A stretch of DNA of 64,000 nt, taken from NCBI GenBank assembly GCA_902810075.1, contig LR778135.1, forward strand, positions 1,426,001-1,490,000. The letters are read 5' to 3'. Source of the DNA: Ruminococcaceae bacterium BL-6 (GTDB lineage Bacteria; Bacillota; Clostridia; Oscillospirales; Acutalibacteraceae). This document shows positions 22,132 through 41,642 of the stretch, piece after piece (position 1 is the first letter of the stretch; each line of letters begins with the position of its first letter). Below the pieces are notes generated by a model, which was given only the letters and a program-made list of their open reading frames with translations, made no database searches and was not told the DNA's origin. The position numbers were made by a program, and so were the translations under genes.

Positions 22132-22970
22132 CCAGCAAAAGCCCCGTCCGCTCCTGTGAGGACATCGACGAAACGGCACTTTCCTACGCGGAAATCAAGG
22201 CTCTGTGCGCCGGGGACGAGCGGATCAAGGAGAAGATGGACCTCGATATGGACGTGGCCAAGCTGAAACTCATGAAAGCCAACCATCAGAGCCAGCAGTT
22301 CCGGCTGGAGGACAATCTGCTCAAATACTTCCCGGAGGAAATTGAGCGAAATAAAGGGTTTATTAAGGGTCTGGAAACGGATATGGCGACGCTGGAAGCG
22401 CACCCGCATCCGAAGGACGGGTTTGCCGGGATGATAGTGCGGGGCGATTCCCTCACCGACAAAGACAACGCCGGTGCCGCCATTCTGGAAGCCTGCAAGG
22501 AAGTCAAGGGATTGGAGCCGATGGAGATCGGCAGCTACCGGGGCTTTACCGTGTCGCTGTCCGTGGAGGGGTTCGGACAGGATTTTATCCTTACCCTCAA
22601 AGGGCAGATGACACACCGGGTAACTCTTGGCAAGGACGCACATGGCAACTTGATCCGTATCGACAACACTCTTTCCGATATGCCGAAGCGGTTACAGAAT
22701 GTCCGCGCGCAGCTTGAAAATCTTCATTCTCAGATGGATGCGGCAAAGACCGAGATCGGAAAGCCGTTCCCGCAGGAAGCGGAGCTTGCGCAAAAGAGTG
22801 CCCGCCTCGCGGAACTGAACGCGCTGCTGGATATCGACAGCCGCGCCCCCGCCCAACGGCAGGCGACGGAGGTTCTGGAAAAAAGCGAAAGGCCCTCCGT
22901 GCTGGAGAGCCTGAAAACGCCCTGCGTCTGCGGGACGGGTAAAAAACTGAAACGCGAATTGGCCCGATAA
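21972..22970 (+). CDS. Methylase/SNF2 protein, C-terminal piece
   Basis: Native sequence begins near 22045 with HIFRYVTEGTFDSYLWQTVENKQ, the end of the SNF2 helicase core, and continues into TSKSPVRSCEDIDETALSYAEIKA and a long coiled region (about residues 85-330 of this piece). The first 25 codons from 21972 duplicate helicase motif VI in the wrong frame. If the frameshift is real, internal initiation at ATG 22128 is possible but there is no strong ribosome-binding site. Confidence 0.8.
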   Translation: MEAGRSGTAVRAHHPAVQYKPRRHIFRYVTEGTFDSYLWQTVENKQKFISQIMTSKSPVRSCEDIDETALSYAEIKALCAGDERIKEKMDLDMDVAKLKLMKANHQSQQFRLEDNLLKYFPEEIERNKGFIKGLETDMATLEAHPHPKDGFAGMIVRGDSLTDKDNAGAAILEACKEVKGLEPMEIGSYRGFTVSLSVEGFGQDFILTLKGQMTHRVTLGKDAHGNLIRIDNTLSDMPKRLQNVRAQLENLHSQMDAAKTEIGKPFPQEAELAQKSARLAELNALLDIDSRAPAQRQATEVLEKSERPSVLESLKTPCVCGTGKKLKRELAR

Positions 22971-24889: not shown

Positions 24890-25099
24890 ATGGGAAAGAG
24901 CAATAAGGTCTGCATTCGGTGCGGGCGAAAAATGAAGCAGCAATTTATAGGCTTGCAGCATTGCAGATGCGGCATGAGCTGGAAAAAAGGCATTGGCTAT
25001 TTTGAGCGTACTCCCGACATGATTTTTGCTTTGGAGCGCAAAATCATCGGGAAAAAAGTTAAGCAGGTTCCAGTCATAAGATATAAAAGCGAAAGTTGA
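24890..25099 (+). CDS. Small zinc-ribbon-like protein
   Basis: A 69-residue protein with CIRCGRKM near the N terminus and CRCGMSW about 20 residues later, a four-cysteine pattern suited to binding one zinc ion, followed by a basic tail. GAGAGGATGATGTT upstream gives a weak but usable ribosome-binding site. It sits between the CD1845-type gene and the relaxase. I know of no function. Confidence 0.65.
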   Translation: MGKSNKVCIRCGRKMKQQFIGLQHCRCGMSWKKGIGYFERTPDMIFALERKIIGKKVKQVPVIRYKSES

Positions 25100-25161
25100 G
25101 AAAATTTCTAAAACGGTCTGCCGTGAGCAGGCCGTTTTTCATACGGAAGGAGGGGCGGCTC

Positions 25162-25569
25162 ATGGCAACGACGCGGCTAATGCCGCTACATACCGGCAAG
25201 GGCCGGGATGTCGGCACGGCAATCAGCGATATTATTGATTACGCGGAAAACCCGGAGAAAACGGATTACGGCAGGCTTATCACCGGCTATGAATGCGACA
25301 GCCGGACAGCCGACGCCGAATTCCTTTTTTCCAAACGGCAGTATGCCGCGCTCACCGGCAGGACGCGCGGTGCGGACGATGTGATTGCCTACCATCTCCG
25401 ACAGTCCTTTGTCCCCGGCGAGGTCACGCCGGAGGAAGCGAACCGGATCGGCTGTGAGCTTGCCAAACGGTTTACGAACGGAAACCACGCTTTCATCGTC
25501 TGCACCCACATCGACAAACACCACATTCATAATGTACGCCCAGATAGGGCAATAAGTAAAGCAGTATAA
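25162..25569 (+). pseudogene. Relaxase/mobilization nuclease, N-terminal fragment cut by a group II intron
   Basis: The first 124 residues are a MobA/VirD2-type relaxase (MATTRLMPLHTGKGRDVGTA..., KNPEKT-like ENPEKTDYGRLITGYECD, ITPEEANRIG, NHAFIVCTHIDKHHIHN). The gene stops being native at 25533, exactly after the codons for HIHN in the metal-binding motif HIHNH. The remaining 12 codons are intron sequence. The 3' exon is not in the window, so active relaxase cannot be made even if the intron spliced. Start ATG 25162 follows GGAAGGAGGGG. Confidence 0.9.
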
Positions 25570-27144
25570 GGTACTGCCCCGTAAGATAACACGGGAAACA
25601 ACCTGCCTAACCGAAAGGCGAAAGCTGACACGGGAACAAAGTACGACAGGAAAGCGGTAAGTCACCTAAAGGCAATTCAGTGCGACTGAACCGCAATGTT
25701 AATCGGATATAAGGTATAAGTTGGGTTTACTGAACGCAAGTTTCCAGTTTCTATTATGTGTGGACAGAAGAAAGTGCCTGAAACTTCTGGTGCGGAAAAG
25801 ACAAGTCATGGTTGTGGGCTTGTCTGTTATCAGTAATTCCGTACAACCTGTAGGAGAACCTATGGTAACGAAACGAAAGCGACACCGATAATCCGAAATT
25901 ACCAAGACTTATTGCTAACTGGGGATACCCTAAACAGGAACGCCATCAAAGACCGGCTATGGCTATAGATCCTGAAAATCCTGCATGGGTACGGAGCGTT
26001 CGTAGTAGTCCGAGGACGGTAACGCCGTCTACATGGCGAAGGGATGCAGTTATTGTGTACTAAAATTAAAAGTTGATTAGGGAGGAAAACCTCACATGAA
26101 ACCAACAACAGAAATTTTAGCAAGAATCAGCGAAAACTCACTCGCAAACAAAGACGAAATTTTCACCAAACTGTATCGCTATCTATTAAGACCTGACATC
26201 TATTTTGTCGCCTATAAAAATCTGTATGCAAATAATGGGGCGGCAACAAAAGGCGTGAACAATGATACGGCTGACGGTTTCAGTGAAGCAAAAATTAATG
26301 ATATCATTAAATCATTGGTGGACGAAACCTATCAGCCAACACCAGTAAGGCGCACCCACATTCCAAAGAAAAATGACCGTAAAAAGGAACGACCTCTAGG
26401 AATCCCGACATTTACGGATAAATTAGTGCAAGAAGTTCTTCGCATGATACTTGAATCAGTTTATGAGCCAGTATTTTTAAAAGTATCACATGGATTCAGA
26501 CCAAAAAAGAGCTGTCATACAGCACTAAGAGAAATCAAATACGAATTTAACGGTGCAAAGTGGTTTATTGAGGGCGATATCAAAGGCTGCTTTGACAATA
26601 TAGACCACGCTGTACTAGTGGGTTTCCTCAACAACAAGGTCAAAGATGCTCGGATTATAAAGCTGATATACAAGTTTCTCAAAGCTGGATATGTAGAAAA
26701 CTGGCAATATCACAAAACCTACAGCGGAACACCGCAAGGTGGCATTATCTCACCGCTTCTTGCTAACATCTATCTTCATGAACTAGATAAATTTGTAATG
26801 CAGTTAAAATCTGAGTTTGACACGCCGAATGTAGAAACAATCACGCCTGAATATCGTGAAAAGCACAACGAAATAAAACGACTTTCTCACCACATTAAAA
26901 AATCACAGGGAGAGGAAAGAGAACGGTTGCTTGATGAATACAGACCAAAACGCAAGCAACTAATGTCCATTCCTTGTACTTCCCAGACTGATAAAAAAAT
27001 TAAATACCTACGGTACGCAGATGATTTTCTTGTGGGGGTAAAAGGGAGTCGTGAGGATTGCCAGTTGATTAAGAGCAGACTTGCCGAGTTTATCGGTCAT
27101 ACGCTGAAAATGGAACTCAGCGAAGAAAAAACGCTCATTACTCA
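25534..27144 (+). mobile_element. Group II intron of the Ll.LtrB type, 3' truncated
   Basis: The intron starts GTACGCCCAGATAGGG directly after the relaxase codons CAC ATT CAT AAT. The roughly 560 nt before the reverse transcriptase gene closely follow the Ll.LtrB ribozyme as I remember it. GTTGTGG at 25811-25817 corresponds to the Ll.LtrB EBS1 and can pair (with G-U pairs) with TCATAAT at 25527-25533, the last bases of the exon. Domains V and VI and the end of the encoded protein are missing: an IS element begins at 27145. It therefore cannot splice on its own. Confidence 0.88.
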
Positions 27145-27421
27145 GAGCCTGTATTCACAAGCGTTTAAGCAGTGTATGAAAGTGAGAGATTTTAACGATA
27201 GTTTCAGCAGAATCGGTAGTAATTTCATAATCCTTGCTGAGACGACGGGAGTTATTCAGCCAACTAAAGGTACGCTCAACCACCCAACGCCAGGGAAGCT
27301 TTTCCCACTGGTGCGGTTTGATTTTTTCCGAAATGTCCACGCCAAGGCCAAGGGCCTTATCCACATCAAGAACAAAAGTACCGCGATATCCCGCGTCAGC
27401 GCAGAATCTTTGGATGGATGA
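26096..27421 (+). pseudogene. ltrA: LtrA-like group II intron reverse transcriptase, truncated by IS
   Basis: Native residues 1-349 (26096-27142 or so) contain reverse transcriptase blocks: [63 protein letters not shown] and the catalytic YLRYADDF. It ends at EEKTLITQS, where the IS starts; the maturase (X), DNA-binding and HNH endonuclease parts are lost. The remaining 92 codons read through the antisense strand of the IS. Full LtrA is about 600 residues. The start has GGGAGGAAAACC upstream. Confidence 0.92.
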
Positions 27422-27970
27422 GTAGCGCTTAAAAGCAAGTTTTGCCGGTTCAATGCCCGACTTCGTGTCATGAATATTCGCCGCATGGACGACGACTGCA
27501 AGCAGATTTCCCATCACGTCTACGACGATGTGCCGCTTGCGTCCTTTCGTTTTTTCCCTCCGTCAATACCGCGTTTCTCGCTTGCGGCTACAGTCTTGAC
27601 ACTTTGAGAGTCGATAATTCCATAGCTCGGTTCTGCTTTTCGGCCCGCATCTTCACGCGTCTTTACCACCATATGTTGCAATATTCTATTCCAAAGGCCG
27701 CTGATCCGAGCGCGCCGATAGAAACTGTGTACTGTTGAATAGGGTGGAAAGTCATGCGGTAAATGACGCCATTGACAGCCTGTTTTGACAAAATACAAAA
27801 CGGCATCCGTCAACTCGCGTTTTGACCACTTATATTCTCTTAACCCAGAATATAGTGGTTCTATCTCTGCCCATTGTTTGTCGGTCAGGTCGCTTGGGTA
27901 TCCCTGCCTTCGCTTTTCATCTTTTTTCATATGCTCATTTTATCATATCTTCGCTTGTGAATACAACTTC
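27145..27970 (-). mobile_element. IS5-family insertion sequence, copy 1 (826 bp)
   Basis: Ends are GAGCCTGTATTCACAAGCG on the left and, read inward from the right, GAAGTTGTATTCACAAGCG: 19-bp imperfect inverted repeats with three mismatches. The flanks are TCA on the left and TTA on the right. Both fit the TNA target of IS427-type elements but they are not identical, so this copy is not a simple insertion. It is identical to copy 2 except at 27161 and 27877 as read by eye. Confidence 0.92.
27155..27930 (-). CDS. IS5-family transposase in two overlapping frames (copy 1)
   Basis: The upstream frame (27520-27930, 136 residues) carries the N-terminal domain and first catalytic Asp (YGIIDSQSVKT). 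The downstream frame (27155-27517 plus upstream codons, GRKRHIVVDVMGNLLAVVVHA...) carries the second Asp (FCADAGYRGTF) and the Glu (WVVERTFSWLNNSRRLSKDYE). They are joined by a -1 shift at the AAAAAA run in GGAGGGAAAAAACGAAAG, the usual programmed frameshift of IS427-group elements. Function: cut-and-paste or copy transposition of the IS. Confidence 0.9.
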
Positions 27971-28068
27971 TTATTCAAGCGCACCACCCAGCCATCCAGC
28001 AGCACCGTCTGCATCGCTGGTATGGAATTGAGCAGCGCCTCTTCAAGCAAATGAATTTCCTCATTCAT
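27971..28068 (-). pseudogene. GNAT acetyltransferase, 5' fragment (N-terminal 32 residues)
   Basis: Read on the minus strand from ATG 28068: MNEEIHLLEEALLNSIPAM, then QTVLLDGWVVRLN, then the IS right end. The DGW-V-R segment is the usual N terminus of a GNAT subfamily. The codons continue perfectly into the fragment at 36124 (RLN + KNYTYRADCACP), so both belong to one gene broken at the trinucleotide TAA. It follows the carboxymuconolactone decarboxylase gene by 16 nt, so the two were an operon. Confidence 0.85.
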
Positions 28069-28084
28069 TTGATTCACCCCTTCT

Positions 28085-28471
28085 TCAGCTTGTGGGATAC
28101 TTTCCGCCAAGTTCGGCCGCCTTTTTCTCAGCAGCCTCGATCGCCTCTACTCCGGCCATACACAGCACGTTTATGCCTTTTACTATTGTAACTATGACAA
28201 ACGTCTGTGTAATTTCTTCCACTGTCATACCGGCCTCGACTGCAGCCGCGGCATGGGCACGCGCTCCGCTGACCTCGTTATCTACGCTGTCGAGTACCAT
28301 AAAGATGAGTTCACGCGTTTTCGCAGGCAGCGGCCCCGTCTGTGCGGCCTCCCTCATGGTAAGATAACCGCTTAAACCGTCGGGGCAGTATTTTGACAGT
28401 ACCTGTGCAAACGGCGGGTCCCACTTGAGTACGTTTTTATAGTAGTCTAAAATTTCTTCCGTGATTTTCAT
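28085..28471 (-). CDS. Carboxymuconolactone decarboxylase (AhpD-like) family protein
   Basis: A 128-residue all-helical protein. The middle (LPAKTRELIFMVLDSV...GARAHAAAAVEAGMTVEEI) is the AhpD/CMD signature. The canonical CxxC of AhpD peroxidases is absent (positions are GARAH), so a redox role of that kind is unlikely. Start ATG 28471 has GGAGG upstream. It was co-transcribed with the acetyltransferase now split by the IS. Function in the arsenic island is unclear; it may be an unrelated passenger. Confidence 0.85.
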   Translation of the reverse strand: MKITEEILDYYKNVLKWDPPFAQVLSKYCPDGLSGYLTMREAAQTGPLPAKTRELIFMVLDSVDNEVSGARAHAAAAVEAGMTVEEITQTFVIVTIVKGINVLCMAGVEAIEAAEKKAAELGGKYPTS

Positions 28472-28534
28472 TTTTTAGCCTCCAATTCAGTTGAATTCTA
28501 CATTATGCAATAATTTGCCTCTATTATAGCTTAC

Positions 28535-28584
28535 TGGAAAACAAAAAGAAACAGACAAACTTCTTCTCGAAATTTGTCTGTTTC
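28535..28584 (-). terminator. Terminator-like hairpin reading toward the CMD gene
   Basis: GAAACAGACAAA (28548-28559) and TTTGTCTGTTTC (28573-28584) form a perfect 12-bp stem. On the minus strand it is followed by TTTTTGTTTT. It lies upstream of the CMD gene, so it either ended a former upstream gene or acts as an attenuator. Confidence 0.55.
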
Positions 28585-28715
28585 ATCTGGAAAGTTAGGT
28601 CATAAAAGATGCAGTGAATTCGCATGGAGAAAAGGAAACAAACAGCCGATTTGCGGGAAATTCTACATACTGAGCAAGCCTCCTGACAAGTGCAAAATTT
28701 TTATTATATGGTAGA

Positions 28716-28772
28716 TTGACAAAATGTAATAATGCGCATATTATATAGATGAATCTAAATATCATTGATGAT
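28716..28772 (+). promoter_or_regulatory. arsR promoter with candidate ArsR operator
   Basis: TTGACA (28716-28721), 17-bp spacer, TATTAT (28739-28744). Downstream, ATCATTGATGAT (28761-28772) is a 12-bp palindrome that could be the ArsR site, placing repression just after the start of transcription. The operator is inferred. Confidence 0.75.
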
Positions 28773-28795
28773 AGTCTATGTATAGAGAGGTAATC

Positions 28796-29137
28796 ATGGA
28801 AAACAAATACGCGGATTTTGCTCTGCTTTTCAAGGCTCTGTCGGATGAAACCCGGCTGAAAATCATCGACATGCTATCTTGCGGGGAGCTCTGCGCCTGC
28901 GATATTTTGAAACATCTCAATATCACGCAGCCGACGCTGTCCTATCACATGAAAATGCTTTCCGAGTGTGGCATGGTCAATGCCGACCGGCAAGGTGCCT
29001 GGATGCACTATACTTTAAATGAAGTCACCACGAAGAGTATTTCAGAATTCTGGCAATTGCTTTCAAGCAGCAAGGAGAATTGTATTTGTCACAGTTGCTA
29101 TGAACTACAGGAAAATAACTGCAAATCAGAAACCTGA
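28796..29137 (+). CDS. arsR: ArsR-family arsenic-responsive repressor
   Basis: A 113-residue winged-helix repressor. The metalloid-binding motif ELCACD is at residues 31-36 (Cys33, Cys35) with Cys29 just before it, and the recognition helix is TQPTLSYHMKML. Arsenite binding to the cysteines would release DNA. Additional cysteines at the C terminus (NCICHSCYELQENNC) are unusual and may add a second site. ATG 28796 (GAGAGG upstream) is preferred to 28778. It is the first gene of the island and has its own promoter. Confidence 0.93.
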   Translation: MENKYADFALLFKALSDETRLKIIDMLSCGELCACDILKHLNITQPTLSYHMKMLSECGMVNADRQGAWMHYTLNEVTTKSISEFWQLLSSSKENCICHSCYELQENNCKSET

Positions 29138-29200
29138 CAATACAAATTCACCGAATCCTTAACTGCGTTTGGTGAACGTTTCTTGCCTCTTTTTCACATC

Positions 29201-29233
29201 TTGAATATAAGATAAATTGTCTATTATATTCAA
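29201..29233 (+). promoter_or_regulatory. Promoter/operator of arsD-arsA-acr3-arsC
   Basis: A perfect inverted repeat TTGAATATAA (29201-29210) and TTATATTCAA (29224-29233). TTGAAT can serve as -35 and TTATAT (29224) as -10 with 17-bp spacing, so a dimeric repressor bound here would block RNA polymerase. ArsR is the likely binder. Confidence 0.6.
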
Positions 29234-29267
29234 AATTTTCAATTATATTATAAGGAGTTGTTTTTTT

Positions 29268-29645
29268 ATGAGTAAAATGGTTATTTTCGATCCCGCCATG
29301 TGCTGTTCCACGGGAGTTTGCGGCCCTGCCGTAGACCCGGAATTGCTGCGAGTTGCCGCCGTGCTTGAAAACCTGAAAAAAGTCGGTATAGAAGTGGCGC
29401 GGCACAACCTTTCTTCCGAGCCGCAGGCATTTATGCGCAGCGAGGTAGTCGCCAACGCACTGAATGAAAAAGGCGTGGCGGCCTTGCCAATCACCATGGT
29501 TGACGGGAAGATCGCAAAATCCGGCAACTATCCCACCAATGAGGAATTCGCCCATTTGCTTGGTGTCTCAGTGGATACGATTAAACCGGCCACCAAAGTA
29601 AAGGTAAGCAAACACTGCAACTGCGGCCCCAAAGGCTGCTGTTGA
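29268..29645 (+). CDS. arsD: ArsD arsenite metallochaperone
   Basis: A 125-residue thioredoxin-fold protein. The arsenite-binding cysteines Cys12-Cys13-Cys18 lie in AMCCSTGVCGP, and the core ALPITMVDGKIAKSGNYPT is conserved. The extra C-terminal HCNCGPKGCC cluster is common in longer ArsD forms. ArsD hands As(III) to the ArsA ATPase encoded next. ATG 29268 follows AAGGAG. Confidence 0.94.
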   Translation: MSKMVIFDPAMCCSTGVCGPAVDPELLRVAAVLENLKKVGIEVARHNLSSEPQAFMRSEVVANALNEKGVAALPITMVDGKIAKSGNYPTNEEFAHLLGVSVDTIKPATKVKVSKHCNCGPKGCC

Positions 29646-29664
29646 AAGGTAAAAAGGTACAGAT

Positions 29665-31410
29665 ATGGAGCTATATAACCCAGAGAAAGTATCAATGACA
29701 AAATATCTGTTCTTTACCGGCAAGGGCGGCGTAGGCAAGACTTCGATTGCCTGCGCCACGGCTGTCGCCCTTGCGGATTCCGGGAAAAAGGTGCTGCTCG
29801 TCAGCACCGACCCGGCATCCAACCTGCAGGATGTTTTCGGCATCCCGCTTGACAACAAAGGCACGGAGATTAAAGAAGCGCCGGGGCTTATGGTTGCAAA
29901 CCTCGACCCGCTTGCCGCGGCCGCAGAATACCGCGAATCGGTTGTTGGGCCGTATCGCGGGAAGTTCCCCGATTCCGTCATCCGCAACATGGAGGAGCAG
30001 CTTTCCGGCTCCTGCACCGTCGAGATCGCGGCATTCAATGAATTTTCGGCCTTTCTGACCGACGGAGATAAGGCGGAGCGGTTCGACCACATTTTGTTTG
30101 ACACGGCCCCCACGGGCCACACCCTGCGGATGCTCCAGCTTCCCTCCGCATGGACGGGGTTTATCAGTAAGAGCACGCATGGAGCGTCCTGCCTCGGACA
30201 GCTTTCCGGACTCGAAAGCAAAAAAGGGACCTATAAGAAGGCCGTCTACACTCTTGCCGATGGTGGGCTTACAACCCTTATTCTTGTCACAAGGCCGGAG
30301 GCTGCTCCGATTCTGGAGGCTAAGAGGGCGTCCGAAGAACTTGGATCGCTCGGTATCAACAATCAGTTGCTTGTGGTCAACGGACTGCTGGAAAGCAGCG
30401 ATCCAAACGACGCGGTAGAAACCGCTCTGTTTGAGAAACAAAAGGCCGCGATTGAAAACATTCCCGCCGATCTTCTGAAACGACCGGCCTCAATGGTACC
30501 CCTGCGCGCCTATAACATAACCGGCATTGAAAATGTCCGCCATATGCTCTCCTATTCGGGAAGCGCGGGCGGCGGAAACAGTCCGGCGAAAATAAGCGCC
30601 TACGCGCTGGCGAACGTGGTAGATGAACTTTACAACTCCGGCAAAAAGGTCATCTTCACGATGGGCAAGGGCGGCGTCGGAAAGACCACGGTTGCCGCCG
30701 CCATCGCGCTGGGACTGAACCGCAAAGGCCAAAAAGTGCGTCTCGCCACTACAGACCCCGCCGATCACCTGAATTTTGTAATGAACGGCGACGCCGGAAT
30801 CTCTGTCAGCCATATTGACGAGCAACTTGAACTTGAAAGATACAGGGATGAAGTGCTGACCAAAGCCCGGAAAACCATGAGCGAGGATGATCTCGCTTAT
30901 GTAGAGGAAGACCTGCGCTCTCCTTGCACACAGGAGATTGCCGTGTTTCGGGCCTTTGCCGAGATTGTGGCAAAAAGCCTGGACGAAACGGTGGTAATCG
31001 ACACAGCGCCAACCGGCCATACGCTCCTGTTGCTCGAATCCACCCAAAGCTATAACCGGCAGATTGAGAATTCGGGCGGCGACGTATCGGAAGCGGCAAA
31101 AGCATTGTTGCCGAGACTGAAAAACCCGGACTACACAGAGGTGGTGATCGTCACGCTTCCCGAAACCACACCGTTTTTTGAAGCACAAAGGCTTACCGAA
31201 GACTTAAAGCGCGCGGGCATTTCGGCGAAGTGGTGGATCGTAAATCAAAGCCTGTCCTTTGCAGAAACAACCAGCGATTTTCTGAAAGCTAAAGCGTTCG
31301 GTGAAATTCAGTGGATTGAAAAGGTTCGGGAAATTTCTAACGGCAGTTTTGCGGTTATCCCGTGGAAGCCGTTTGAAATCAAAGGCGGCAGGCTGCTTAA
31401 ACTGTTATAG
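29665..31410 (+). CDS. arsA: ArsA arsenite efflux pump ATPase
   Basis: A 581-residue tandem ATPase with two P-loops: GKGGVGKTS in the first half (about residues 19-27) and GKGGVGKTT in the second (about 334-342). DTAPTGHTLR and DTAPTGHTLLLLES are the two switch-II signatures. Cysteines in SGSCTVEI, ASCLGQL and SPCTQEI match the As(III) site positions. It gets arsenite from ArsD and energises the membrane carrier. Start ATG 29665 or 29695 cannot be separated. Confidence 0.95.
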   Translation: MELYNPEKVSMTKYLFFTGKGGVGKTSIACATAVALADSGKKVLLVSTDPASNLQDVFGIPLDNKGTEIKEAPGLMVANLDPLAAAAEYRESVVGPYRGKFPDSVIRNMEEQLSGSCTVEIAAFNEFSAFLTDGDKAERFDHILFDTAPTGHTLRMLQLPSAWTGFISKSTHGASCLGQLSGLESKKGTYKKAVYTLADGGLTTLILVTRPEAAPILEAKRASEELGSLGINNQLLVVNGLLESSDPNDAVETALFEKQKAAIENIPADLLKRPASMVPLRAYNITGIENVRHMLSYSGSAGGGNSPAKISAYALANVVDELYNSGKKVIFTMGKGGVGKTTVAAAIALGLNRKGQKVRLATTDPADHLNFVMNGDAGISVSHIDEQLELERYRDEVLTKARKTMSEDDLAYVEEDLRSPCTQEIAVFRAFAEIVAKSLDETVVIDTAPTGHTLLLLESTQSYNRQIENSGGDVSEAAKALLPRLKNPDYTEVVIVTLPETTPFFEAQRLTEDLKRAGISAKWWIVNQSLSFAETTSDFLKAKAFGEIQWIEKVREISNGSFAVIPWKPFEIKGGRLLKLL

Positions 31411-31443
31411 TCGCTATTTCTGCAATTATTGGAGGTAAGAAAC

Positions 31444-32529
31444 ATGGAACGGGCAGGCGGCAGGCTTTCCTTCTTAGACCGATTTTTGACGCTGTGGATC
31501 TTCTTGGCTATGGCAATCGGCGTGGCTGTGGGAAACTTTTTTCCTGGCGCGGCAAACGCCATCAATCAATTAAGCACCGGCACGACCTCATGGCCGATCG
31601 CGGTAGGGCTGATTCTGATGATGTACCCTCCGCTGATCCGGGTGAAATATGAAGAAATCGGCAAGGTGGCAAACAACAAAAAGGTGTTTGGTTTTTCTCT
31701 TTTGCAGAACTGGATCATCGGGCCGATCCTGATGTTTATCCTGGCCCTCATCTTCTTGCCGGATAAACCGGAGTACGCAGTTGGCATCATCGTCATTGGG
31801 CTTGCCCGCTGCATCGCCATGGTGATTATCTGGAATACCCTCGCCAAAGGCGATAATGAGTATTGCGCCGCGCTGGTGGCACTCAACGCCATCTTTCAAA
31901 TCCTCCTTTACTCAGTCTACATCTGGCTGTTTGTCACAGCTCTGCCGGGTGCTTTGCATCTTTCGTGGGGCGATAACGCAGTTCATGTTTCCATTTGGAA
32001 AGTCGCCCGCAGCGTATTGACTTATCTCGGCATCCCGTTTGTGGCGGGTATCGTCACCCGCTTTGCCGTGATGCGCACCAAGGGAAAGGAATGGCTGACC
32101 AAGACCTTCATTCCGAAAATCTCACCGCTCGCCCTGATTGCGCTGCTCTATACCATTGTCATCATGTTTATGCTCAAAGGGCGTATGATCGTTGAGCTGC
32201 CGTTGGATGTAGTGCGGATAGCGATTCCCCTGCTGATCTACTTTGTCCTGATGTTTTCCATCAGCTTCTTCATTTCCTATAAGCGTGGATTCCGGTATGA
32301 GCAGACGACGACGTTATCCTTTACCGCCGCGAGCAACAACTTTGAACTTGCCATTGCTGTATCGGTCGCGGTATTCGGCATCGGCTCCGGGCAGGCGTTC
32401 GCCGCCGTCATCGGGCCGCTGATCGAGGTGCCGGTCATGATCCTGCTCGTGCGGCTTGCGTTGTATTTAAAAAGTAAGTATTTTAACAATGACGGCCTGC
32501 CTGTGAAAGAGACGGAGGTTTCAAAATGA
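31444..32529 (+). CDS. acr3: Acr3-type arsenite efflux permease
   Basis: A 361-residue membrane protein with about ten helices. Characteristic Acr3 segments are present: [13 protein letters not shown] (about 59-71), [12 protein letters not shown] with the transport Cys (about 120-131) and [17 protein letters not shown] with a conserved Glu near the C-terminal end. It exports As(III), probably driven by the ArsA ATPase. ATG 31444 has GGAGGT upstream; its stop overlaps arsC by 4 nt (ATGA). Confidence 0.95.
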
Positions 32530-32939
32530 GTGGAAAACCGAAAGTCGCGTTTATCTGCACACACAACTCCTGCCGTTCGCAGATGGCGGAGGCAATCAGC
32601 AAAAAACTGGCTTCGGATGTGTTTGAGGCGTATTCGGCCGGGACGGAAATTAAAAAAGCGATCAACCCGGATGCTATCCGCGTCATCCAGAAGCTATACG
32701 ACGTCAACATGACGGAGAGTCAGCACCCAAAGTTACTTTCGGAACTTCCTGCAGTTGACATCGTCGTCACGATGGGTTGCGGAGTGCAATGCCCGTATCT
32801 GCCCTGCAAGCGCCGGGAGAACTGGGGGCTTGACGACCCAACAGGTGGGGCGGAAGATGAATTTATCAGAACGGCTAAAATAATCGAGGAAAAAATTAAT
32901 AACTTAAAGGGCAGAATTTCAAATAGCAATGGCAAATGA
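32526..32939 (+). CDS. arsC: Arsenate reductase, low-molecular-weight phosphatase type
   Basis: A 137-residue enzyme that reduces arsenate to arsenite for export. The phosphate-binding loop is C11-THNSC-R17-S, and the redox cysteines lie in [12 protein letters not shown] (Cys85, Cys89, Cys94), followed by WGLDDPTGG. This is the thioredoxin-coupled group related to pI258 ArsC. It overlaps acr3 by 4 nt and ends the arsDABC operon with a strong terminator. Confidence 0.94.
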
Positions 32940-32954
32940 ACTTTGCTATTTGAT

Positions 32955-32992
32955 AAAAAGCATGTTGACTAACTCTGGTCAACATGCTTTTT
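32955..32992. terminator. Strong terminator after arsC
   Basis: AAAAAGCATGTTGAC (32955-32969) pairs perfectly with GTCAACATGCTTTTT (32978-32992) around an 8-nt loop. It can act in both directions. Confidence 0.93.
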
Positions 32993-33010
32993 AGAAATTA
33001 CTCGCAACAT

Positions 33011-33037
33011 ACAACTGTTTAGTGATACAATAGTTGT
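33011..33037 (+). promoter_or_regulatory. Candidate operator of the MarR gene
   Basis: ACAACTGTT (33011-33019) and AATAGTTGT (33029-33037) form a 9-bp inverted repeat with one mismatch, and TACAAT within it may be the -10 box. It directly precedes the ribosome-binding site of the MarR gene, which points to autoregulation. Confidence 0.6.
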
Positions 33038-33049
33038 GGAGGCGAGACA

Positions 33050-33511
33050 ATGGACGAACGGAATGATTCAATAAAATTGCGTGAGACAATCCGAAAGCTG
33101 GAACGAAAACTCGGCATTCTCGAAGAGAGTGAACTTTCCTGCTGCAATATATCATTGGCACAGTGCCATGCCTTGGTGGAGATAGGCCGGGTAAAGACCA
33201 TTTCGCTCAATGAGCTTGCCGAGCTGCTGAATCTTGAAAACAGCACCATGAGCAGGACGGTAAGCAACCTTGTAAACAGTGGGTATGTGAAAAGAGATAT
33301 TGATGCTACGGACAGACGATACCTCACCATATCGCTCACAGAAAGCGGTCAGGATTTGTTTAACCGGATTGAGGCCGGCATGGGAAGATACTATCGGGAC
33401 ATCTTTGAGCAGATCGAGGAAGGCAAAAGAGGGCAAGTGATTGAAAGCCTGAATCTGCTGCTTGATGCGGTTGAGAAGAGTAATTGCTGTGGCGGTAATA
33501 ATTGTTGCTGA
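33050..33511 (+). CDS. MarR-family regulator with a C-terminal cysteine cluster
   Basis: A 153-residue winged-helix regulator: recognition helix NSTMSRTVSNLVNSGYV and wing DATDRRYLTISLTESG. Two extra cysteine groups stand out: ESELSCCNISLAQC near residues 28-40 and the terminal SNCCGGNNCC. Such vicinal cysteines are typical of arsenite binding, so this may be an As(III)-responsive switch for arsM, 20 nt downstream. That role is inferred. ATG 33050 follows GGAGGCGAG. The gene is separated from arsC by a terminator. Confidence 0.88.
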   Translation: MDERNDSIKLRETIRKLERKLGILEESELSCCNISLAQCHALVEIGRVKTISLNELAELLNLENSTMSRTVSNLVNSGYVKRDIDATDRRYLTISLTESGQDLFNRIEAGMGRYYRDIFEQIEEGKRGQVIESLNLLLDAVEKSNCCGGNNCC

Positions 33512-33531
33512 TTTTTGAAAGGAGTACGACA

Positions 33532-34359
33532 ATGGAATCTCAAGTTCACTCGAAAGTCCAGAAGTATTATGGCGGGATCGCCAAAGGTATCACGGAGGGA
33601 CAAAACAAATCCTGCTGTGGGTGCGGGTCGGCCGGAAATCAGTCCTGTTGTGATGGAATCAGCAGTTCGGCTATCATTTACAACGGAGAGAACCTCAGTG
33701 ATCTGCCCAAGGAGGCGGTAGACGCATCCCTTGGCTGTGCGAATCCGCTGGTGTTTGCTCAACTCAAAGAAGGTGAAACCGTTTTGGATTTGGGCAGCGG
33801 CGGGGGCATCAATGTCCTGATGGCTGCAAAGCATGTCGGCGAAACCGGCAAAGTATATGGTCTCGACATGACGGATGAAATGCTGACACTCGCCCGCAGC
33901 AATCAGGAGAAGATGGGCGTAAAAAACGTGGAATTCGTAAAGGGCTTTATTGAGAACATTCCACTTAAAAATGAGGCCGTGGACGTCATCATCTCGAATT
34001 GTGTCATTAACTTGTCGGATGACAAACCCAAGGCAATTTCAGAGGCTTACCGGGTACTAAAAAAAAGCGGTCGGATCGCCATCGCCGATATTATTAACCT
34101 AAAGCCGGTTTCGGCAGATATAAAAAGCAAGACCGATTTATGGTGCGGCTGTATTGCGGGTACGCTTGAGCTTCAGGAATACAGGAGTATCCTCGAAAAA
34201 TCGGGATTTCACGATATTGAGATCAACCCCGCCCATGTTTACACAAAAGAAGTGATCGAGCAGCTTTTTGGCAATTCCCTGGAATATAAGGCATCCGGTG
34301 TAGATATGGACAAAGTGGACGGGGCCTTTGCCGGTGCTTATATAAAGGCTGTAAAATAG
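33532..34359 (+). CDS. arsM: ArsM arsenite S-adenosylmethionine methyltransferase
   Basis: A 275-residue class I methyltransferase. SAM motif I is [15 protein letters not shown] (about 89-103) with the acidic LDMTDEM following. Cysteines for As(III) are in IISNCVINL and LWCGCIAG, the usual ArsM pair. A Cys-rich insert near the N terminus (Cys28, 29, 31, 39, 40) is also typical. The enzyme turns arsenite into methylated species. ATG 33532 follows AAAGGAG. It is in an operon with the MarR gene. Confidence 0.93.
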
Positions 34360-34464
34360 TATGCGTTTCTCTACCTTTGTCAGAAGGGATTTATTCTATC
34401 ATGTAGTTGCATACCACGATTATTTGCAATTACAATAATTTTGCTTGTTGAGGAGCCTGTAAAA

Positions 34465-34965
34465 ATGGATGCTGTAATACGCTCGATGAATGAAAAAGAT
34501 TGGCCATCCGTTTCTGAAATTTACCGTCAGGGAATTGAGACCGGGAAGGCCACGTTCCAAAGCGATATACCCGCCTACGATGAATGGGATACCACACATA
34601 TCCGGGAATGCAGGTTTGTTGCTGTGGTTGATGGGAAAGTCACGGGGTGGGTTGCACTCTCAAAAATCAGCAGCCGGTGTGTTTACGGCGGCATCGCCGA
34701 AGTAAGCATATACATCGCAGAAAATCATCGTGAAGAAGGGATCGGTCGGCAACTGCTGAAATACCTCATTACAAAATCGGAGAGAGCCGGTTTTTGGATG
34801 CTGCAATCGGGTATCATGGAAGACAATGCAGCCAGCATCAGGCTGCACGAATGCTGCGGCTTCCGCATGGTTGGCTATCGGGAGAAGATTGGAAAAGACG
34901 TCAGCGGCAAGTGGCGAAATAACGTTCTGATGGAGAAAAGAAGTCACACCGTAGGAATAGATTGA
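34465..34965 (+). CDS. ArsN1-like GNAT acetyltransferase
   Basis: A 166-residue GNAT enzyme close to phosphinothricin acetyltransferases: GKATFQSDIPAYDEWD near the N terminus, VYGGIAEVSIYIAENHREEGIGRQLL for acetyl-CoA binding, and GFRMVGYREKIGKDVSGKWRNNVLMEK at the end. In ars islands such enzymes (ArsN1) acetylate the arsenical antibiotic arsinothricin, which is the likely role here. ATG 34465 with AGGAG at 34451-34455 is preferred to TTG 34441. Confidence 0.85.
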   Translation: MDAVIRSMNEKDWPSVSEIYRQGIETGKATFQSDIPAYDEWDTTHIRECRFVAVVDGKVTGWVALSKISSRCVYGGIAEVSIYIAENHREEGIGRQLLKYLITKSERAGFWMLQSGIMEDNAASIRLHECCGFRMVGYREKIGKDVSGKWRNNVLMEKRSHTVGID

Positions 34966-34991
34966 TTCCGAAGTGAAAGAGGGTGTCTATT

Positions 34992-35135
34992 ATGTTATTC
35001 GTGGGAATCGTGCTGGCTGTCGTTCTTATAGCTGCTGTTGGGGCGGTAGGCGCTCCGGGCAGCAAAAATAGTGAAGAAGCGGTAATGGAAAAGTTCTGCA
35101 AACTTGAATGTACCTGTTGCCAGAGACGTCCTTAA
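34992..35135 (+). CDS. Tiny membrane peptide with a cysteine tail
   Basis: A 47-residue reading frame: one hydrophobic helix (residues 2-22, FVGIVLAVVLIAAVGAVG), a charged linker and a terminal FCKLECTCCQRRP with four cysteines. GAGGGTGTCT upstream could be a weak ribosome-binding site. It directly follows the ArsN-like gene and precedes IS copy 2. The cysteines suggest metalloid binding at the membrane, but there is no homologue I can name and it could be a chance frame. Confidence 0.4.
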   Translation: MLFVGIVLAVVLIAAVGAVGAPGSKNSEEAVMEKFCKLECTCCQRRP

Positions 35136-35296
35136 CCTCGAATGAGCCTGCCTACTCATATGAGTGGACAGACTCTTTCTGTATCAAGACCGTCATTCGG
35201 CCCAAGCTGGTGCTTAAAAATTCGTCCGATTGCTTTAGAAAATCAGAACATCATTTTCATTCCAGGCTCGTTGGAAATTTCTTTGGAACGCTCTAA

Positions 35297-36122
35297 GAGC
35301 CTGTATTCACAAACGTTTAAGCAGTGTATGAAAGTGAGAGATTTTAACGATAGTTTCAGCAGAATCGGTAGTAATTTCATAATCCTTGCTGAGACGACGG
35401 GAGTTATTCAGCCAACTAAAGGTACGCTCAACCACCCAACGCCAGGGAAGCTTTTCCCACTGGTGCGGTTTGATTTTTTCCGAAATGTCCACGCCAAGGC
35501 CAAGGGCCTTATCCACATCAAGAACAAAAGTACCGCGATATCCCGCGTCAGCGCAGAATCTTTGGATGGATGAGTAGCGCTTAAAAGCAAGTTTTGCCGG
35601 TTCAATGCCCGACTTCGTGTCATGAATATTCGCCGCATGGACGACGACTGCAAGCAGATTTCCCATCACGTCTACGACGATGTGCCGCTTGCGTCCTTTC
35701 GTTTTTTCCCTCCGTCAATACCGCGTTTCTCGCTTGCGGCTACAGTCTTGACACTTTGAGAGTCGATAATTCCATAGCTCGGTTCTGCTTTTCGGCCCGC
35801 ATCTTCACGCGTCTTTACCACCATATGTTGCAATATTCTATTCCAAAGGCCGCTGATCCGAGCGCGCCGATAGAAACTGTGTACTGTTGAATAGGGTGGA
35901 AAGTCATGCGGTAAATGACGCCATTGACAGCCTGTTTTGACAAAATACAAAACGGCATCCGTCAACTCGCGTTTTGACCACTTATATTCTCTTAACCCAG
36001 AATATAGTGGTTCTATCTCTGCCCATTGCTTGTCGGTCAGGTCGCTTGGGTATCCCTGCCTTCGCTTTTCATCTTTTTTCATATGCTCATTTTATCATAT
36101 CTTCGCTTGTGAATACAACTTC
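35297..36122 (-). mobile_element. IS5-family insertion sequence, copy 2 (826 bp)
   Basis: Same length and ends as copy 1, in the same orientation, offset by 8,152 bp. It is flanked on both sides by TAA (35294-35296 and 36123-36125), which fits a TNA target duplication. The two copies differ at 35313 and 36029 by eye. The right end interrupts an acetyltransferase gene. Confidence 0.93.
35307..36082 (-). CDS. IS5-family transposase in two overlapping frames (copy 2)
   Basis: Upstream frame 35672-36082 and downstream frame 35307-35669, with the same three catalytic acids as copy 1. They are joined by the same A-run frameshift. The encoded proteins are identical to copy 1 as far as can be seen. 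An active enzyme is plausible because both frames are open. Confidence 0.9.
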
Positions 36123-36801
36123 TAAAAATTATACTTACCGCGCTGATTGTGCCTGTCCGCTTCGGTACACGGCGGGCATCGGCATCGACGAAAAAATACG
36201 ATTCTGTGAAGAGCTCTTTATCACCAATAAGCTCCCTGCTGTTTTTAAAGTCACCCCTGTTTTGCAGGAAGGACTTGTTGATATTTTGTTATCCCAAAAT
36301 TATCAGAACATTAAAACAGTAAAGGTCATGCGCTGCAAATTGGAAAATGTAGAAATTGATGACTGTGCGGAAATCAGATGTATGGATGCACCCGACAATG
36401 GATGGCTTGCGGCATCTGCTGAACTCTCGGGTATCGTGCTGCCCGAGCTGATAGAAGTCCATTGCCAGAATCTGAAAAATATTGCAGTTAAAAGCGTTTT
36501 TGTCGAAGCAAGCATAGATGGCAAAGTAGTTGGCTGCGGGTATGGAACAGTCGAACGTGGGTACGTCGGAGTCTATGATCTGCATGTGGAGGATGCGTAT
36601 AGATGCAGAGGAGTAGGGACGGCCATCTGCCGCGCCATTTTTCGTTATGGTATCCGGCAGAATGCAAAATACGCTTATCTGATCGTACATAGCAAAAATC
36701 AAAATGCCATTTCACTATATTCCCATATGGGATTTACCACATTTTACGAGTACAGCTTTTATTGCAAGCCCCATCCTTTGTATAAAGTTGTGGATGCATA
36801 A
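36123..36801 (+). pseudogene. GNAT acetyltransferase, 3' fragment
   Basis: Native codons begin at 36124 (KNYTYRADCACPLRYT) right after the IS and its TAA duplication. The acetyl-CoA motif is seen in VYDLHVEDAYRCRGVGTAICRAI, followed by YAYLIVHSKNQNAISLYSHMGF. Joined with the 5' fragment at 27971-28068 it would give a normal GNAT protein of about 257 residues. In its present place the gene has no proper start; the open frame extends into the IS. Confidence 0.88.
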
Positions 36802-36972
36802 GTGCCTTGGAAGCTTTATCAGACAGCCGTTCGCCAGCCAGTGTTGAAGCCTTTTATTCTTATAAATGCAATAAAACAGCAGACATGTGGCTTCTATGTG
36901 GCACTTTTACTCATGGTATGTACGCTTTTTATATTTGCTGTATCGACTGCTGTAATATCTTTCTTGGCGTAA
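36802..36972 (+). CDS. Possible small membrane protein abutting the acetyltransferase fragment
   Basis: A 56-codon frame beginning at GTG 36802, directly after the acetyltransferase stop. It reads PWKLYQTAVRQPVLKPF and then one strongly hydrophobic helix (YVALLLMVCTLFIFAVSTAVISFLA). There is no clear ribosome-binding site, so expression would rely on translational coupling. It could also be the remnant of a larger membrane protein. Low confidence. Confidence 0.3.
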   Translation: MPWKLYQTAVRQPVLKPFILINAIKQQTCGFYVALLLMVCTLFIFAVSTAVISFLA

Positions 36973-40210: not shown

Positions 40211-41026
40211 TCATGCAAAAACAACGACAGCCTGTTTCCGTTTGATTCGAAGCAAAACGGTTTCGAGTACACGGAAGCTGTGGTTCAGGTCCTTCTGCTC
40301 CAGATAGGCGGCCGCCATATCCTGCCCAATCACAAGGTCCATGTTCTTTTTGTCGGAGCCAACGAGCACCGCTTTGCCTTTTCCCAGGGCCGGGGACTGA
40401 TACAGATGACCATTCACCAGTTTGGCGACCCGGTCGATCTCCAGAAGTCCGGTCCCCGGCTGCAGCCTCTGCATCTGCATGTAGAGGTCGGGGCTTACCG
40501 CAAGGGCATAAGTCCCGTAGATATTGTTTTCCGCAAGGCAGGCAATGCCGGCGGCGATGTCCGCAAAGGCATCCTCGCCGGCGCTCCAGTCCTTTTTCGT
40601 TATTTTCGACGTGCCGTCGGCTGTCAGCAAGCCGTCATACCCGAGCCCCTTGTTTCCAAAGAAGATCAGCCGGTCTTCCTTCAGGGCACACGTCTCGGCC
40701 GCCCTTTCCGCCGCGGAAAGCTCCGTGGGGAACCCGGATTTTTCCGCGCTCTCCAGATCTTTTGCAAGCAGGATAAAATCTTCATAAACGGTCGGGATCT
40801 CTACGAATTTTCTTCCCTGGGTCGTGATCAGGCCATCCTTCTCCACTTCCTTCACCGCATCCGCGTCGTCGACCGCGACCGTTTCGGTTCCGATTCCCAG
40901 CGGGCCGAAAACATGCAGAAAGCGCCGTCCGGTCAAAACGTTCCGCGCCGCCTTCACAACGGCGGAATCGATCTGCTTCCAAAGCTCTTCGGACAAAGGG
41001 GAAGATTCCCTGGATAAATAACTCAT
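40211..41026 (-). CDS. Family 1 encapsulin shell protein
   Basis: A 271-residue HK97-fold shell protein (linocin M18 type): N-terminal LSEELWKQIDSAVVKAARNVLTGRRFLHVFGPLG, the ETCALKEDRLIFFGN segment and C-terminal LNHSFRVLETVLLRIKRKQAVV. It self-assembles into an icosahedral compartment. The cargo gene lies directly upstream on the same strand (29-nt gap). ATG 41026 is chosen because AGGAGG lies 8 nt before it; a GTG at 41032 is too close. A nanocompartment for iron storage is the expected function. Confidence 0.95.
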   Translation of the reverse strand: MSYLSRESSPLSEELWKQIDSAVVKAARNVLTGRRFLHVFGPLGIGTETVAVDDADAVKEVEKDGLITTQGRKFVEIPTVYEDFILLAKDLESAEKSGFPTELSAAERAAETCALKEDRLIFFGNKGLGYDGLLTADGTSKITKKDWSAGEDAFADIAAGIACLAENNIYGTYALAVSPDLYMQMQRLQPGTGLLEIDRVAKLVNGHLYQSPALGKGKAVLVGSDKKNMDLVIGQDMAAAYLEQKDLNHSFRVLETVLLRIKRKQAVVVFA

Positions 41027-41055
41027 ATTCACAGCCTCCTTTTTCGCTTCGATCC

Positions 41056-41430
41056 TTATTCTTTTCCGATCAAACTGCCTATTGTCGAGGGCTCGGAAGC
41101 GCTGCCTGCCGGATTTTCCGCCGACTCGGCGATTCCAAGCTCATCCAGCATTTCGCGGACTTCCGCTTCCCCGGATGCGAACAGCTCTGCTTCTTTTGGA
41201 TCAAGCGTCCTGAGCAGCGTCATCAATTCGCCGATATGGGCCTTTTCCTCGTCGCGGATATCCGCGAGCACCTTTTTTGCAGCCTCGTCATCCGTCGCCT
41301 GAACGTGGGCGTCATACAGGTAAATCGCTTCCAGTTCGCCCGCAATATCCAGACGGACGGCCTGAATCAGTTCTTCTTTGGTCAGTTTGCGTTCGACATT
41401 TCCCTGAAAAGGATTTGCAAAAGCCGGCAT
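41056..41430 (-). CDS. Encapsulated ferritin-like protein (EncFtn) with cargo-loading peptide
   Basis: A 124-residue two-helix ferroxidase-type protein. GELEAIYLYDAH and RDEEKAHIGEL carry the iron ligands; Glu32, Glu62 and His65 coincide in position with those reported for EncFtn. The last residues STIGSLIGKE are a typical encapsulation peptide that binds the shell interior. ATG 41430 is preferred over 41439 because GGAGG is 9 nt upstream. It is the first gene of the encapsulin operon. Confidence 0.94.
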   Translation of the reverse strand: MPAFANPFQGNVERKLTKEELIQAVRLDIAGELEAIYLYDAHVQATDDEAAKKVLADIRDEEKAHIGELMTLLRTLDPKEAELFASGEAEVREMLDELGIAESAENPAGSASEPSTIGSLIGKE

Positions 41431-41541
41431 GTTTGTCATCCTCCAATCAAAAATAATAAAGTTTGCGTTCGAAAGAAGAAAAATCGGGAAACCGGGTTTC
41501 ATGGCCCTGGTTCGAGAAGAAAATTTCCTCTGTTTGCCTTT

Positions 41542-41570
41542 ATTATAAGACAGATATTGACAAAAAACAA
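41542..41570 (-). promoter_or_regulatory. Promoter of the EncFtn-encapsulin operon
   Basis: On the minus strand: TTGTTT (41570-41565), 17-bp spacer, TATAAT (41547-41542). It is 110 nt upstream of the cargo gene. Confidence 0.75.
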
Positions 41571-41642
41571 CAGGATTCATGATTTTTTCTATCTTGTTAT
41601 TCCCGGATGGAAATTCTCCCTTTTCGCAGGGAGCAGCTTTGC

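Follow-up and report, generated by a model that had tools for sequence, protein, structure and literature searches.

How can a single gene come to lie in two pieces 8 kb apart, with both broken ends joined to the same end of an insertion sequence (IS)? The question is raised by a GNAT acetyltransferase gene of Ruminococcaceae bacterium BL-6, located in a stretch of 64,000 nucleotides that was analyzed as a whole (the window). The observed arrangement does not arise by simple insertion, nor by homologous recombination between copies of the IS, as an earlier note on this DNA had pointed out, and the combination of the two was rejected, since it does not put both halves at the same IS end. The features of the locus are collected in Table 1.

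Table 1. Features of the split-gene locus, in window coordinates.
Feature	Position	Strand	Remarks
Relaxase exon 1, interrupted by a group II intron	25096..25569	+	Pfam Relaxase PF03432, positions 1-94 of 132
Intron-encoded reverse transcriptase (RT), 5′ part, LtrB-type group II intron	26096..27144	+	Cut by IS1 at TCA
IS1 left-end flank	27142..27144		TCA, original target letters
IS1	27145..27970	-	826-bp IS5-family element; transposase ORFs 27930-27520 and 27517-27155 (minus strand); haplotype G17/T734
GNAT 5′ piece	27971..28068	-	32 codons plus 2 bases
Carboxymuconolactone decarboxylase family gene (CMD)	28085..28471	-	Pfam PF02627; same strand as, and upstream of, the GNAT 5′ piece
Terminator-like hairpin	28540..28583	-	Between CMD and arsR
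Arsenic (ars) cluster: ArsR, ArsD, ArsA, Acr3, ArsC-like, MarR, ArsM, ArsN1-like acetyltransferase	28778..34965	+	Pfam, NCBIfam
IS2 left-end flank	35294..35296		TAA
IS2	35297..36122	-	Second copy, oriented as IS1; haplotype A17/C734
GNAT 3′ piece	36123..36801	+	225 codons; starts with the TAA of the target; codons from 36124
Approximate right boundary of the island (putative)	36802..36812		Onward, sequence like the DNA that follows tRNA-Pro in one genus mate out of three

One Gene, Two Insertion Sequences

Read on the minus strand from 28068 to 27971, the 5′ piece gives MNEEIHLLEEALLNSIPAMQTVLLDGWVVRLN, followed by two bases; at its broken end the plus strand reads TTA, complementary to TAA. 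The 257-aminoacid protein P0001, which was retrieved using the 3′ piece alone as query, is 94% identical to that piece across its full length, and its N-terminus is identical to the 5′ piece at 31/32 residues; among all other 32-residue stretches in a six-frame translation of the window the best reaches 10/32, so that the match of the 5′ piece is not due to chance. In three other genomes (L062, L101 and L066) both pieces are adjacent within one gene. When the TAA is counted once, the spacing of the motifs around the break is that found in 38/40 GNAT homologues, the two exceptions being P0036, which is without the N-terminus, and P0027, which is extended N-terminally past the 60 residues tested; this shows that the TAA, now present at both breaks, was originally single. 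A short match of the 5′ piece in the genome G576 turned out to be an intact GNAT gene with other neighbours, and a single, sub-threshold Rfam microRNA match was taken as chance.

Both breaks adjoin ...TTGTGAATACAACTTC, which is the right IS end in window orientation, and have the 3-bp TAA target in common. IS1 and IS2 alike carry GAGCC as the five outermost bases of the left end and GAAGT as those of the right end, and the assignment of the ends is thus unambiguous; the transposase start lies near the right end, which by convention would presumably be named IRL. The earlier note was therefore right in describing one acetyltransferase gene, with its halves at the same IS end and restored by the shared TAA.

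The genome is a single contig with 12 near-identical copies of this IS, 10 of which have matching 3-bp target duplications. These duplications, the short inverted repeats and the Pfam matches to DUF4096 and DDE_Tnp_1, both above cut-off, place the element in the IS5 family; the first transposase ORF alone scores 92.8 with NF033580 IS5, below the cut-off of 110. The flanks of IS2 match (TAA/TAA), and of the other copies with matching flanks 4 out of 9 also have TAA, while IS1 has mismatched flanks (TCA/TTA), as does one further copy among the 12, L011. Two sites distinguish IS1 from IS2, and each state is found in other genomic copies (G/T in 7/12, A/C in 3/12, G/C in 2/12), which argues for two separate older insertions from different sublineages, without the making of a new IS copy.

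The Host Element and Its Arsenic Genes

A degraded conjugative element of about 47 kb lies downstream of tRNA-Pro, and its last gene is the split one. On the left, the order FAD-dependent gene, tRNA-Gln, tRNA-Pro is common to all three genus mates; on the right, positions 36884-36932 match L116 with 80% identity (E 1.4e-5 when the query is the whole window), with a short collinear match at the preceding hairpin, while L117 and L118 gave no comparable match for this flank. The right boundary, placed from one genus mate of the three, is approximate; a second copy of the tRNA-Pro 3′-end, looked for as an att site at the right edge of the island, was not found, and past about 120 bp to the right the gene order is not kept with respect to the genus-mate stretches compared. 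Left synteny and right-flank match place the event wholly inside the island.

The element retains genes for a coupling protein, a TraG-type ATPase and a topoisomerase. It does not qualify as a functional integrative conjugative element, as the relaxase domain is shortened and the recombinase has no match to the N-terminal resolvase domain; furthermore, the helicase/methylase gene, a single ORF of 2287 aminoacids in a relative, is here spread over three frames. Relaxase exon 1, which we take to be ltrB-like, is interrupted by a reverse transcriptase-encoding group II intron of the LtrB type, whose 3′ part is missing. The layout relaxase, RT, second exon matches that of a Lactococcus plasmid, and the intron stretch 25560-27144, used as a query of 1585 bases, aligns in full, at 74% DNA identity, with an intron that interrupts a Lactococcus relaxase gene. 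The Lactococcus RT (599 aminoacids) has a single match in the genome, with residues 1-356, the last few of which extend past the IS1 border; RT sequence past about residue 356 is absent from the genome, as searched with the same query that found the first part. A DNA query made up of the 3′ portion of the RT and the second exon of the relaxase also gave no match, in a search run without a positive control.

Two members of the arsenic cluster, the ArsC-like and the ArsN1-like genes, fall under the NCBIfam cut-offs for those families. The hairpin at the arsR-CMD junction is also found right after tRNA genes in both relatives examined; it resembles the terminator of an upstream gene that has been lost, and for this reason the junction itself may be an older or simultaneous scar. 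An ars cluster is also present in L104, a related element of the same genus.

The earlier note had proposed the split as the explanation for how the arsenic island arrived. Since the element ends with the split gene, the ars genes lie inside it, and L104 has such genes too; the event is a rearrangement within the conjugative element and not the arrival of the arsenic genes.

A Probable Deletion-Inversion by Two Like Ends

With a probability of about 0.6, the present order was produced by one deletion-inversion of the Tn10 type, carried out by the IS5-family transposase inside the conjugative element. The earlier order would have been, on the left, relaxase exon 1, the RT 5′ part, IS1 (left end to right end) and a segment C, containing the RT 3′ part, relaxase exon 2 and further DNA; on the right, IS2 (right end to left end), the ars genes on the minus strand, CMD, the intact GNAT gene and the right end of the element. 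IS1 and IS2 would thus have been inverted with respect to each other, with their right ends facing inward. Cutting of both facing right ends would release segment C, which would be lost; the two ends would then join the TAA target in the GNAT gene, on the IS2 side, with a strand pairing that inverts instead of deleting. As a consequence, the block IS2-ars-CMD-5′ GNAT would be inverted, the 5′ half of GNAT would be brought to the right end of IS1 and the 3′ half to that of IS2, and TAA would be duplicated at both. A route like that of IS30, through a joined right-right junction, would lead to the same product, and the two cannot be told apart here.

When carried out symbolically on the proposed order, the deletion-inversion reproduces the observed order and signs exactly. 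IS1 and IS2 are in direct orientation, their right ends are at the TTA/TAA of one GNAT site, and TAA is present at both new junctions, as expected when one target, which gives the spacing of 38/40 homologues when counted once, is cut by both ends. The two IS sublineages fit the model as well, since it makes no new copy of the IS. The model retains the old left flank of IS1 and supplies a new right one, which explains the mismatched TCA/TTA; the RT is missing beyond about residue 356, at the IS1 border, and this is read as the loss of the segment between the acting ends. In L104 the ars genes are on the strand opposite to the adjoining helicase/methylase gene, which is the orientation required by the model before the event; this lends weak support, as these genes have 34-71% identity to the present cluster and a different order.

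Against this reading, TAA/TAA at IS2 taken alone resembles a simple insertion, which the model has to treat as a coincidence; the possible scar at the arsR-CMD junction and the right boundary drawn from one of three genus mates also count on this side. IS5-family elements are described as using both replicative and conservative routes (PMC11708052, consulted in part). For the present element a conservative chemistry that cuts at two ends is presumed, which also weighs against the model.

That no relative with the uninterrupted, pre-event order was found also counts against the model, so that we infer the history of the event from its product. The search for an uninterrupted CMD-GNAT pair, suggested as a check, gave none: CMD was found in 0/78 relatives and, at E <= 1e-25, in 0/393 genomes of the order, whereas GNAT was found at E <= 1e-30 in 1/393 (own genome excluded from these counts). 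Megablast of the region against plasmids gave no match, and scans of viral contigs with CMD and a GNAT alignment gave no relative; the scan of genome contigs with CMD returned one, in Clostridium rhizosphaerae, with no GNAT in the 20 kb examined. A comparison of P0001, the nearest CMD and the nearest ArsM, made on protein lists that carry no gene context, gave no sign of a common contig. When the CMD-ars block was compared with 398 genomes of the family, 66 (own genome included) matched, mostly in the ars genes, and none of the listed matches covered CMD, a weak negative as two candidate places per genome were scored.

Alternative Explanations

A hybrid-end transposition would start from IS1 and IS2 in direct orientation, with the ars genes between them as they are now; the two right ends would attack the TAA in a GNAT gene located farther right, and the two broken donor ends would be rejoined, with loss of DNA, at the arsR-CMD junction. 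It explains both right-end junctions, the IS1 target mismatch and the lost RT C-terminus, and also the presence, left of arsR, of a terminator whose gene is missing. However, it takes same-type ends in direct orientation and the end-joining of two unrelated breaks, a reaction less readily done by bacteria, and it is one step longer; it is therefore held to be unlikely, and the deletion-inversion, which requires no rejoined break, is preferred.

According to the earlier note, the arrangement requires either a composite element whose right ends point outward or an insertion to which an inversion was added. Neither is needed: inward-facing right ends and a single deletion-inversion give the exact map, and also explain the lost half of the intron and the flanks of IS1. 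The insertion into GNAT of a composite transposon with outward right ends, followed by a separate inversion, would fit the TAA common to both right ends, but the outer flanks differ (RT/TCA left of IS1, GNAT/TAA right of IS2) and the repeats of at least 40 bp in the window consist of one direct family, with no inverted pair that could mediate the second step. This scheme also leaves the missing RT C-terminus unexplained and must carry the backbone of the element between the ends of the transposon; its chances, too, are low.

An assembly artefact, conceivable with 12 near-identical IS copies, is quite improbable, because confusion of copies swaps flanks among them and cannot shift a flank from a left end to a right end; moreover, the genome assembled as one contig, and matching duplications are found at 10/12 copies. 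If the gene or element had existed twice, the IS could have inserted independently into each copy, at the same TAA and in opposite orientation, and later recombination would put both halves at right ends; however, such insertions at the same site are themselves improbable, and the genome holds one strong match each to the GNAT 3′ piece and to CMD (the 5′ piece was scored only as the edge of a longer query, at two candidate places per genome), which makes this history very doubtful. Finally, replicative inversion by one IS copy and in-place flipping of an IS through its inverted repeats both reshuffle the association of IS and flanks, the latter having been described for Wolbachia IS (PMC3004938, seen in part), but they are contradicted by the IS haplotypes and end bases and have next to no likelihood: the former predicts that the two copies are identical and inverted and that the 3′ half lies at a left end, whereas the observed copies are direct, belong to two sublineages and have the 3′ half at a right end; the latter predicts GAGCC and GAAGT on their old sides, whereas all four junctions are canonical.

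Significance

IS-associated inversions are often attributed to homologous recombination; here several independent marks point to the action of a transposase on the ends of two copies of an IS. These marks suggest a rule for recognition, namely both halves of a gene at the same IS end, one short common target and an IS with mismatched flanks, and its application to genomes would show how frequent such events are at natural IS pairs. The type of event is already known, from laboratory transposons, and the present locus is most likely a clean natural example of it. A farther-reaching reading, to which we give somewhat less than even odds, is that IS5-family elements can use two same-type ends from separate copies in one conservative reaction, that this signature is a general, computable marker of natural deletion-inversions and that the event, by taking away what was left of the relaxase, fixed the arsenic-carrying element in place. 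If the deletion-inversion is true, the C-terminal exon of the relaxase was removed by it, and this may have helped to strand the arsenic genes in the chromosome.

Comparison with Known Systems

In the open-licence literature, searched by titles and openings of abstracts, no report was found of a deletion-inversion by an IS5-family element, which is not proof of absence. As far as the parts of the sources consulted describe them, three systems are comparable. In Tn10 deletion-inversions the inside ends are cut, the central region is lost, a flank is inverted and the two IS become direct repeats (PMC2723962); likewise, at the present locus two like inside ends would have acted, with loss of the centre, inversion of the segment from IS to target and a direct IS pair as the outcome. 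Unlike the IS10-based, laboratory-selected events of Tn10, this would be a natural fossil of an IS5-family element inside a conjugative element, and its IS pair probably derives from two separate insertions and not from a ready-made transposon. Reversed-ends transposition of maize Ac/Ds generates inversions with new target duplications at the breakpoints (PMC8225341) and, similarly, it engages the ends of two nearby elements in one reaction, with loss of the intervening DNA; however, maize uses a 5′ and a 3′ end, while here two ends of the same type would be involved. Inversions mediated by a junction are described for IS30 (PMC9333248), in which the joined ends of two IS copies attack a target and produce deletions or inversions; that junction is left-right, whereas the one at this locus would be right-right.

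The acetyltransferase gene and its two pieces

The earlier note had proposed that two fragments about the insertion sequence (IS) copies IS1 and IS2 are parts of one acetyltransferase (GNAT) gene, joined at a shared TAA, and homologues bear this out. A database search using the 3′ piece alone retrieved P0001, the closest homologue (257 aa), whose N-terminus corresponds to the 5′ piece; the runner-up 32-residue stretch, in all six frames of the window, matched it at 10/32 residues. Both pieces adjoin within one gene in three genomes (L062, L066, L101), and the spacing around the break is the same in 38/40 homologues, the other two being P0036, which is without the N-terminus, and P0027, whose start lies upstream, with the motif beyond the first 60 residues tested. 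Because of this constant spacing, the TAA at both breaks is, judged from the homologues, a formerly single TAA, i.e. a 3-bp target duplication.

Features of the locus (window positions)
Feature	Position	Strand	Remark
Helicase/methylase gene	15582-22970		Three separate frames
IS1	27145-27970		Same orientation as IS2
GNAT 5′ piece	28068-27971	minus	31/32 residues as in the P0001 N-terminus (its first 32 residues)
Terminator-like hairpin	28540-28583	CMD strand	GAAACAGACAAA...TTTGTCTGTTTC
Arsenic (ars) cluster	28778-34965
IS2	35297-36122		Same orientation as IS1
GNAT 3′ piece	36123-36801	plus	94% identity to P0001 across the entire piece
Right-edge match to G001	36884-36932		80% identity
Encapsulin and EncFtn-like genes	40211-41580		Adjoining

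The insertion sequence

The IS is 826 bp long; its ends are GAGCCTGTATTCACAA and GAAGTTGTATTCACAA (the latter inverted). Its two-ORF transposase of the DDE type fits the IS5 family, the NCBIfam IS5 model on the first ORF alone scoring under its cut-off. In the genome (one contig, 3,435,529 bases) there are 12 near-identical copies, to which the following analyses refer, and three at 88%. The outermost bases are canonical at both ends in all 12, and the 3-bp flanks match (TTA, TAA or ATA) in 10; the unmatched copies are IS1 (TCA/TTA) and L063 (genome 627820-628644, minus; TTA/TAA), where another rearrangement or a one-base loss perhaps occurred. Two variable sites define three types, G/T (n=7, including IS1), A/C (n=3, including IS2) and G/C (n=2). 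At L064 (genome 2502052-2508452) three copies lie inside 6.4 kb, all in one orientation; two break adjacent genes, which by eye look like peptide permeases, and have clean target duplications.

The host island and its cargo

To the left of the window, a FAD-dependent gene, tRNA-Gln and tRNA-Pro occur in an order common to all three genus mates examined; in BL-6, tRNA-Pro is followed by a recombinase, in which the N-terminal resolvase match is absent, ParA and ParB. On the right, the sequence beyond the GNAT stop codon matches G001, a genus mate, downstream of tRNA-Pro (E 1.4e-5 for a query of the whole 64-kb window, against 1.1 for the next hit). A short collinear match precedes it, at a hairpin; neither of the two other genus mates gave a comparable match in the corresponding stretch. 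From this synteny and match, the island most likely spans approximately genome positions 1,415,814 to 1,462,811 (~47 kb), with GNAT as its last gene.

Inside the window, the island encodes a coupling protein, a TraG-type ATPase, NlpC/P60, a topoisomerase and a relaxase, whose gene is interrupted by an LtrB-type group II intron; IS1 sits in the reverse transcriptase (RT) of that intron. The conjugative element looks decayed, since its helicase/methylase gene is fragmented, and recombinase and relaxase are truncated; the same-genus relative of the helicase/methylase gene (L104:636-7499) is a single 2287-aa ORF. To the right of the island, the window carries an encapsulin gene (Pfam Linocin_M18) and its EncFtn-like neighbour, both of which are conserved (72% and 81%) in a genus mate.

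The carboxymuconolactone decarboxylase (CMD) gene and close GNAT relatives are absent in the three genus mates, and in the order CMD was found in 1/79 and 1/394 genomes, the sole one being BL-6 itself, and GNAT (E <= 1e-30) in 2/394, BL-6 counted, as expected of cargo. In L104, a related element from a genome of the same genus, another ars cluster (ArsC, ArsA, ArsD, Acr3 and two ArsR; L104:8745-17715) adjoins a tyrosine integrase gene, so ars genes are a recurrent cargo of this family of elements.

Origin of the present arrangement

The best explanation of the locus, to which we give a probability of roughly 0.6 from its sequence, is a deletion-inversion of the Tn10 type by the right ends of IS1 and IS2. 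In Tn10, both inside ends are cut and the central region is lost; the cut ends then attach to opposite strands of the target, which inverts the intervening segment and leaves the two IS as direct repeats (PMC2723962). The starting order would have been exon 1, RT 5′ part, IS1 (left to right end), a segment C, IS2 (right to left end), ars genes (minus), CMD, GNAT and edge. Both inner ends would have been cut with deletion of C, and joined one TAA in GNAT on opposite strands, inverting IS2, ars, CMD and the GNAT 5′ piece. Applied symbolically, these steps yield the present map exactly.

The deletion-inversion would entail loss of C, which fits the missing RT remainder: the Lactococcus RT (599 residues) has a single genome match, over residues 1-356, the last few just beyond the IS1 border, and the search found the rest nowhere in the genome. 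A DNA query of its 3′ part plus second exon, run with no positive control, gave nothing. IS1 would retain its old left flank and gain a new right one, in line with its TCA/TTA flanks; two different IS copies are expected, and the types differ; and a single target with duplicated letters agrees with the GNAT TAA. The matching TAA/TAA flanks of IS2 would then be a coincidence; of the other matched copies, nine in all, four are flanked by TAA. In the related G001 element, whose ars cluster has 34-71% identity to that of the window and a different gene order, the ars genes and the adjacent helicase/methylase gene lie on opposite strands, as the model needs for the starting order.

As to chemistry, a joined junction of IS ends, as in IS30 (PMC9333248), may have acted instead of a Tn10-like reaction, both being compatible with the sequence. 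It is unlikely that like ends of directly oriented copies inserted in GNAT, the arsR-CMD junction being the healed break. The terminator-like hairpin near this junction could mark such a break; ars similarity in relatives begins at ~28,715. The hairpin was matched in 11/398 family genomes (two candidate places scored per genome). In the two relatives inspected, tRNA-Thr and tRNA-Leu genes stand immediately before it, so it resembles a terminator of tRNA genes in this family. The junction may thus be an old scar, or a healed break if like ends did insert.

Neither a single insertion nor homologous recombination explains the layout, as the earlier note rightly held, given that both GNAT halves adjoin the same right end: simple insertion would place them at opposite IS ends, and exchange between copies leaves each flank on its end. 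In-place flipping by recombination between terminal repeats (PMC3004938) would leave the outermost bases behind, and GAAGT is at both GNAT junctions. Replicative inversion, expecting identical inverted copies and the GNAT 3′ half at a left end, fails because IS1 and IS2 are direct repeats from two sublineages and that half sits at a right end.

Comparison with known systems

Missing target duplications are treated as marks of IS-linked rearrangement in PMC11708052, where an IS5 case with a deletion is discussed; titles and abstract openings of the open-licence papers searched gave no report of deletion-inversion by an IS5-family element. Deletion-inversion and the reversed-ends transposition of maize (PMC8225341) are known kinds of event, of which the BL-6 locus would be a natural further instance.
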